In this document: in pieces, positions 35,239-35,615 of the stretch
Layout: each line of letters starts with the position of its first letter
Position numbering within the stretch: position 1 is the first letter of the stretch
Assembly (NCBI GenBank): GCA_016866775.1
Contig: VGLJ01000048.1
Location: 1-36,843, forward strand
DNA length: 36,843 bases
From: Candidatus Rokuibacteriota bacterium
GTDB taxonomy: Bacteria > Methylomirabilota > Methylomirabilia > Rokubacteriales > CSP1-6
Direction: 5' to 3'
The notes under the pieces: model-generated
What the model was told of the DNA's origin: nothing
The model's database searches: none
Seen by the model: the letters and a program-made list of their open reading frames with translations, nothing else
Translations under genes and position numbers: made by a program

Positions 35239-35440
35239 AAAAAAAGCCCCGACGAGAGTCGGTGACGCTTCTCTCAGGACTGCGCGTCACCCCGGTGGTG
35301 AGCCGGGTCTCGTCGGGGCCGGTGGTGCCTGGACTCCCAGGCGCGTCCACCTCACATCAGCGTGGATCCTGCCTTAGGAGGCAACCACCTCACAGGTCAC
35401 CGTAGGGCTACACATCGACTGGATCACCTCCTATTCTCGG
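35239..35440 (-). ncRNA. Candidate structured small transcript on the minus strand
   Basis: The 3' end is a perfect 11-bp stem, GCCCCGACGAG/CTCGTCGGGGC (35319-35309 with 35256-35246), enclosing two more perfect stems: CCCGG/CCGGG (35291-35307) and GTGACGC/GCGTCAC (35262-35290). The three-way junction is followed by seven U (35245-35239). A further hairpin, GCCTGG/CCAGGC (35327-35342), is extended by GGTGG/CCACC. Upstream is AGGAGGTGATCCAG (35432-35419), followed by a 13-codon ORF. No known RNA family was recognised: RNase P, tmRNA, SRP and 6S consensus features are missing. The 5' end is uncertain; a promoter candidate at 35587-35615 would make it about 340 nt. It could be a regulatory RNA or a tiny mRNA. 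Confidence 0.5.
35374..35415 (-). CDS. Candidate 13-residue ORF with very strong ribosome site
   Basis: ATG 35415 to TAA 35374 encodes MCSPTVTCEVVAS. AGGAGG ends 11 nt upstream of the ATG, within a 14-nt match to the anti-Shine-Dalgarno tail. The final codons GCC TCC TAA contain CCTCCT, which could pair back with AGGAGG and close the start site. The two Cys codons recall leader peptides, but no biosynthetic gene lies downstream before the U-run terminator. No homologue known to me; may not be translated. Confidence 0.3.
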   Translation of the reverse strand: MCSPTVTCEVVAS

Positions 35441-35586
35441 CAAGGGCGCCACGCGGGCCCAGGTCCCACTGACCTCCAACCGGGTGCCGACTCCCGGCCC
35501 GAGGCTCGGCCACGTGCTGCCGCCGGCGTGATTGCCCGCGGGGACGCTGATGGAGCGCTGTGACGCTCCGGCCGACTTGTTTTTTC

Positions 35587-35615
35587 ATCGTACCTCAGCC
35601 CGCGAGAACTCCCAA
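35587..35615 (-). promoter_or_regulatory. Possible promoter of the minus-strand small transcript
   Basis: TTGGGA (35615-35610) and TACGAT (35592-35587) are separated by 17 bp on the minus strand, just downstream of the helix-hairpin-helix gene end. Predicted start near 35580. Both boxes are imperfect. Confidence 0.3.

Follow-up and report, generated by a model that had tools for sequence, protein, structure and literature searches.

Ms1, an intergenic and stand-alone RNA of Actinobacteria of about 300 nt, binds the core of RNA polymerase. For M. smegmatis, PMC10454040 has separate entries for IGR-5 and for Ms1, which rules out that Ms_IGR-5 is Ms1, an equation that we had considered. Ms_IGR-5 itself is filed in Rfam as RF02471, under the label 'Actinobacteria sRNA', with its function unassigned and with a gathering cut-off of 45 bits. 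It is transcribed in S. avermitilis as a discrete unit, the start and end of which have been mapped (PMC8780764), and in M. smegmatis IGR-5 is transcribed as ncMSMEG15794c (PMC10454040). The papers that we found term this RNA an sRNA, and they mention no ORF.

Here, we compare with this family an RNA predicted in the genome of a Candidatus Rokuibacteriota bacterium, within a stretch of 36,843 nt (contig VGLJ01000048.1), the whole of which is referred to below as the window. In a first-pass annotation of the window it had been described as an orphan, minus-strand RNA of the interval between cspA and an HhH gene.

Relationship of the Window RNA to RF02471

No Rfam model matched the window at the gathering threshold, and to that extent the statement of the first-pass annotation that the RNA belongs to no recognisable family was correct. 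In a permissive scan, however, RF02471 matched the window at 27.8 bits (E 1.5e-4, under the cut-off), and the alignment was full-length: model positions 1-184 were aligned with 35441-35239 of the minus strand, ending exactly at the U tract. Moreover, 19 genomes of the same class exceeded the RF02471 cut-off, with scores of 50-72 bits. A covariance model, R1, which we built from a 22-sequence alignment (mostly Actinobacteria, plus Methylomirabilia and one proteobacterial MAG), matched the window at 35445-35321 with 35 bits (E 4.4e-7), and with E 6e-10 when 441 nt of the window were searched with the filters off. Among other bacteria, R1 found matches in 23 out of 60 Actinomycetota and 9 out of 60 Acidobacteriota. 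The model appears to give chance matches rarely, because only 2/59 genomes from the phylum of a groundwater 'Deltaproteobacteria' MAG and 1/61 from the phylum of a Manganitrophaceae MAG were matched, the single match in the latter being the centre genome itself. Taken together, the permissive Rfam match, the R1 match and the scores of the 19 class-mates contradict the description of the RNA as an orphan and indicate that it is a divergent relative or variant of RF02471; we do not call it a member, because the window fails the Rfam cut-off.

Extent, Promoter and Terminator of the RNA Gene

The whole RNA, of about 342 nt, spans 35239-35580 of the minus strand, on which all features described below are located unless stated otherwise. 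Its extent is supported by the folding z-score, by conservation in the family and by the RF02471 alignment. The terminator domain (35239-35319), as indicated by the sequence, the predicted folds and covarying pairs, consists of a long stem with two inner hairpins and of a U7 tract at 35245-35239, which directly follows the terminator stem formed by GCCCCGACGAG (35319-35309) and CTCGTCGGGGC (35256-35246). At the other end, a putative -35 hexamer, TTGGGA (35610-35615), and a putative -10 hexamer, TACGAT (35587-35592), are separated by a spacer of 17 nt and predict a transcription start near 35580. The first two T residues of the -35 hexamer are kept in 52/52 and 51/52 relatives, respectively, and TA..AT of the -10 hexamer is invariant in all 52; the conservation of the -10 hexamer among these aligned family members is 95.5%, as compared with 58% for the spacer. 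This conserved promoter, an element absent from the earlier description, agrees with the 5' end of the RNA, and the discrete, structured RNA with a U7 terminator that had been placed in the cspA–HhH interval was confirmed in that its stem and U7 tract were located and the promoter fits its 5' end.

The folding energy of the 342-nt strand was -180.6 kcal/mol, as compared with -154.8 kcal/mol (sd 5.7) for shuffled sequences (z -4.55), and 0/100 shuffles folded as well, which upholds the view that the stems exceed chance. Compensatory changes among relatives, which had been named as a check, were found as well: in the consensus fold of 31 distinct family members both sides changed in 22 of the 83 predicted pairs, most of which belong to the 5' domain or the terminator domain. 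The nested stems proposed for the RNA are thus real and beyond chance, but they are in part mutually exclusive alternatives that compete for one strand, that of the ORF described below. Judged by these sequence features, the minus-strand stretch is a genuine structured RNA gene with its own promoter and intrinsic terminator. Searches at the DNA level found relatives of the RNA in 63 out of 99 genomes, 54 of which belong to its own Candidatus Rokuibacteriota family.

A reading of the plus strand, in which it would mimic the 3' end of 16S rRNA, was also considered and rejected: its consensus fold is weaker (-233 versus -256), the model matches are significant on the minus strand only, and the promoter and the U tract are on the minus strand. 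On the plus strand at 35540-35585, GGAGCG...CGCTCC followed by TTGTTTTTT resembles an opposite-strand terminator, possibly for readthrough from cspA.

A Long Shine–Dalgarno Sequence and a Conserved Micro-ORF

A very long Shine–Dalgarno sequence, AGGAGGTGATCCAG (35419-35432), assigned by its position, is perfectly complementary over 14 nt to the 3' end of 16S rRNA (CTGGATCACCTCCT); the 16S 3' ends in two members of the class read GGCTGGATCACCTCCTT. Relatives retain a sequence that can pair with the entire 16S 3' tail, including a G-U wobble in Actinobacteria. Four bases after the Shine–Dalgarno sequence begins a micro-ORF of 13 codons (ATG...TAA, 35374-35415) encoding MCSPTVTCEVVAS, whose frame, start and stop are kept in relatives, with a length of 12-19 codons across several bacterial phyla. 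Thus, the RNA indeed encodes no ordinary protein, as had been stated, but it carries this conserved ORF of 13 codons, which is preceded by a very strong Shine–Dalgarno sequence.

When bacterial and archaeal genomes were scanned for the pattern, at least 120 loci matched, and the same Shine–Dalgarno/ORF layout was found in all but eight of the 120 listed (L084, L095, L143, L153, L158, L166, L181 and L198), which were set aside as long ORFs or as atypical. An FMN riboswitch and a c-di-AMP riboswitch lie near pattern hits (L166 2695-2843 and L151 2909-3111). In 157 of 160 distinct regions ATG, GTG or TTG was found 7-12 nt after GGAGG; in some relatives (L208, L134, L160, L212 and L216) the start codon of the micro-ORF seems to be ACG, ATT or CTG. 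In all 160 regions the stop codon was located 6 codons (156 regions) or 5 codons (4 regions) from the codon before GAG. It was TAG in 135 regions, TAA in 17 and TGA in 8; helix P3 (see below), which holds the stop codon, may account for some of the conservation of TAG in Actinobacteria. In-frame stops were found in 0/1104 codons, as compared with 165/947 and 81/947 in the other two frames, a difference that is partly conditioned, as the search for a start codon began only after any stop. In 30 hits obtained with the covariance model, without coding information, the stop was located exactly 5 codons from Glu in 30/30 cases, with all three kinds of stop codon being used, and internal stops were found in 0/273 codons versus 51/486 in the other frames. 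In the MAG of locus L115, named Desulfuromonadales, the micro-ORF is identical to that of the Methylomirabilia genome G070 (MNICKVICEVVVS), and the name of this MAG may be wrong.

Residues encoded before Glu-Val vary freely, even among close relatives, and it is only Glu-Val that the peptides share, as exemplified by MYGYRTEEVTAG, MHKPHSTREVAVC, MNDSLFGTLEVVGR and MSSNHSEVAET. The conservation of these two residues can be attributed to RNA pairing, because they are encoded by GAGGTG, which is a strand of helix P1. A functional, conserved CEV peptide was therefore rejected: Cys is not conserved in the hits obtained with the model only, and Glu-Val coincides with P1. Literature searches for the peptide motifs and for Ms1 together with Gemmatimonadota returned nothing, and one for the Shine–Dalgarno string nothing relevant among the papers listed. 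A frame and a stop that are conserved while the residues drift indicate that the RNA is not plainly noncoding.

Covarying Helices and a Predicted Pseudoknot on the ORF Strand

Four helices were named in the cross-phylum alignment, which comprises the 22 sequences used for R1. P0 pairs the base before the Shine–Dalgarno sequence with the codon before GAG; P1 pairs GGTGGCTGC within the ORF with GCAGTCACC before the terminator; the start codon lies in the loop of P2, and P3 surrounds the stop. In the 22 sequences 91% of cells were paired, with double changes in 11 pairs as compared with 3.6 in shuffled alignments, and with 30-44% of cells paired in slid controls. P1 was paired in 100% of cases and had double changes in 5 of its 9 pairs, although its pairing level is inflated, since the 3' ends of P1 were picked by complementarity, which was not so for P0. 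Compensation is seen, for instance, as GGTGTCCGT/ACGGACACC and GGTGGCTCG/CGAGCCACC in P1, and as ACGCA/TGCG and ACACC/GGTG, the latter in L070, in P0. In the window, both the cross-phylum and the window alignments place the 5' strand of P1, GGTGGTTGCC, within the ORF at 35380-35389, and its 3' strand, GGCACCACC, adjoining the terminator at 35321-35329.

The strand just before P0 is complementary to the loop of a hairpin of the terminator domain, which predicts a pseudoknot. In the window, this strand is GGUGA in the ORF (35397-35401), and its partner, positioned by sequence, is UCACC (35297-35301) in the loop of the hairpin 35307-35290. Among relatives the predicted pairs take the forms GGAC/GTCC, GGUGA/UCACC, UCGACC/GGUCGA, AGACC/GGUCU and GGAUGU/ACAUCC. 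In 87 relatives the pairing amounted to 425 bp, as compared with 367 bp (sd 7.8) after permutation, and was reached in 0/5000 permutations, which ignore relatedness. Comparison of the relatives thus shows that the ORF strand takes part in covarying helices and in a pseudoknot, in addition to demonstrating the promoter, the terminator, the complement of the 16S tail and the protected frame.

The Rokubacterial Version of the RNA

The window RNA and RF02471 share a core that aligns end to end from the Shine–Dalgarno sequence to the terminator, including the position of the ORF, P1, the pseudoknot and the terminator layout. The window RNA differs as follows. At its 5' end it has an extra domain of about 145 nt (35450-35579), which is kept in the family with 88% mean identity and is missing in Actinobacteria and Methylomirabilis, whose versions of the RNA begin just before the Shine–Dalgarno sequence; BLAST matches in more distant members of the class also start only near the Shine–Dalgarno sequence. 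Helix P0 (of the ACACA/UGUG type) is not formed in the window, where its bases are mismatched in the alignment. Finally, in both the minimum-energy and the consensus folds CCTCCT at the end of the ORF (35376-35381) pairs with AGGAGG of the Shine–Dalgarno sequence, and this predicted sequestration, characteristic of the Rokubacterial type, excludes P1. The Shine–Dalgarno stem is invariant in the family and hence offers no evidence from covariation. Right after the stop codon, at 35359-35344 in the window, there is a second copy of GTGAGGTGG, kept as GGTGG in the Rokubacterial family, which competes with P1 for one CACCACC partner.

Discussion

We propose, with a probability of roughly 0.6, that the window RNA is a stand-alone RNA which captures 30S subunits and whose fold is remodelled by its own translation, and that the act of translation is selected rather than the peptide. 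Translation would probably be the way in which the RNA works, in contrast to a silent noncoding RNA; since selection has preserved the frame and not the peptide, it is likely that translating the ORF matters in itself. We infer that the long Shine–Dalgarno sequence would capture a 30S subunit, and that translation of the micro-ORF would open P1 and the pseudoknot and, depending on the lineage, also P0 or the Shine–Dalgarno stem. The RNA would switch in this way between two states, one compact and untranslated, the other occupied by a ribosome. It might serve as a reporter of free ribosomes or of initiation capacity, releasing its 3' domain, or else as a buffer that engages 30S subunits.

Some of the same features could be read differently. 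The anti-16S sequence might act only as a decoy that titrates small subunits, with the ORF allowing trapped ribosomes to leave. The preserved complementarity to the whole 16S 3' tail, including the wobble in Actinobacteria, is what such a decoy would have, but it would have no need of a covarying P1 and of a pseudoknot linking the ORF to the 3' domain, and in the window the Shine–Dalgarno sequence is predicted to be paired; we regard a mere decoy as unlikely. Slightly less probable still, in our judgement, is that the micropeptide is the functional product and the RNA merely its short mRNA. The strength of the Shine–Dalgarno sequence, the conservation of the start, stop and length, and the invariant Glu-Val near the C-terminus would fit such a product; against it, the residues outside Glu-Val drift, Glu-Val itself is accounted for by the pairing of GAGGTG in P1, and the Cys that precedes Glu varies in step with its partner in P0, as in ACACC/GGTG of L070. 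That the RNA is a leader or attenuator, steering a downstream gene by the position of the ribosome on the ORF, seems improbable. It has the layout of a leader peptide (an ORF, competing helices that its translation would alter, and a terminator), and in Rhodobacteraceae it is followed on the same strand by a gene that resembles ArfB, a GGQ peptidyl-tRNA hydrolase: in L087, L096, L123 and L195 the RNA-like element lies between a YhhQ/Vut-type transporter-like gene and this ArfB-like gene (gene names were given by eye). Unlike in attenuators, however, the terminator looks constitutive and the window offers no downstream gene to be steered: cspA, which lies downstream, is on the opposite strand, as was the longest downstream ORF in 49 out of 90 scanned relatives in a crude test of orientation.

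The remaining two explanations have very little probability. An RNA binding RNA polymerase in the manner of Ms1 or 6S RNA would be of similar size and stand-alone, like the structured 6S RNA, and would occur in bacteria related to the hosts of such RNAs; several actinobacterial hosts are also without a 6S match. Nevertheless, Ms1 and IGR-5 are distinct in M. smegmatis (PMC10454040), and the conserved ORF has no role in a polymerase-binding model, nor do we make any claim about polymerase for the window RNA. In addition, neither the gathering nor the permissive Rfam scans gave an RF00013 (6S) match at the RNA locus, while a canonical 6S RNA is encoded by a separate gene of the window genome (G000:C79:8750-8934, L078; 84.9 bits), and most relatives carry both a 6S RNA and an RF02471-like RNA. 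It is even harder to regard the RNA as what remains of the 3' untranslated region of the HhH transcript. The HhH gene is located just upstream on the same strand and is retained in most family members (a csp gene is retained near the RNA in 48), but a conserved promoter separates it from the RNA, and in other members of the class neither the HhH nor the csp neighbour was found, whereas the RNA core persists there.

Capture of the 30S subunit followed by translation-driven opening of the RNA, the reading that we prefer, may extend beyond the window. RF02471-like RNAs range over Actinomycetota, Methylomirabilota/Rokubacteria, Acidobacteriota and Binatota-type lineages, with single finds in Nitrospirota, Zixibacteria and Rhodobacteraceae. 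It is conceivable, and we advance it tentatively, that they are ancient and widespread translation-gated regulatory RNAs, switched by ribosomes via the entire 16S 3' tail, the peptide being irrelevant. An RNA classed as a noncoding sRNA of Actinobacteria thus occurs in several phyla, beyond the one to which its family name restricts it, and RNAs of this type carry a previously overlooked conserved frame and ribosome-binding site, the latter complementary to the entire 16S tail, as well as a predicted pseudoknot. Regulation by the act of translation is a hypothesis that can be tested in the cultivable M. smegmatis and Streptomyces, and what looked like an orphan RNA of uncultured Rokubacteria belongs to an old family.
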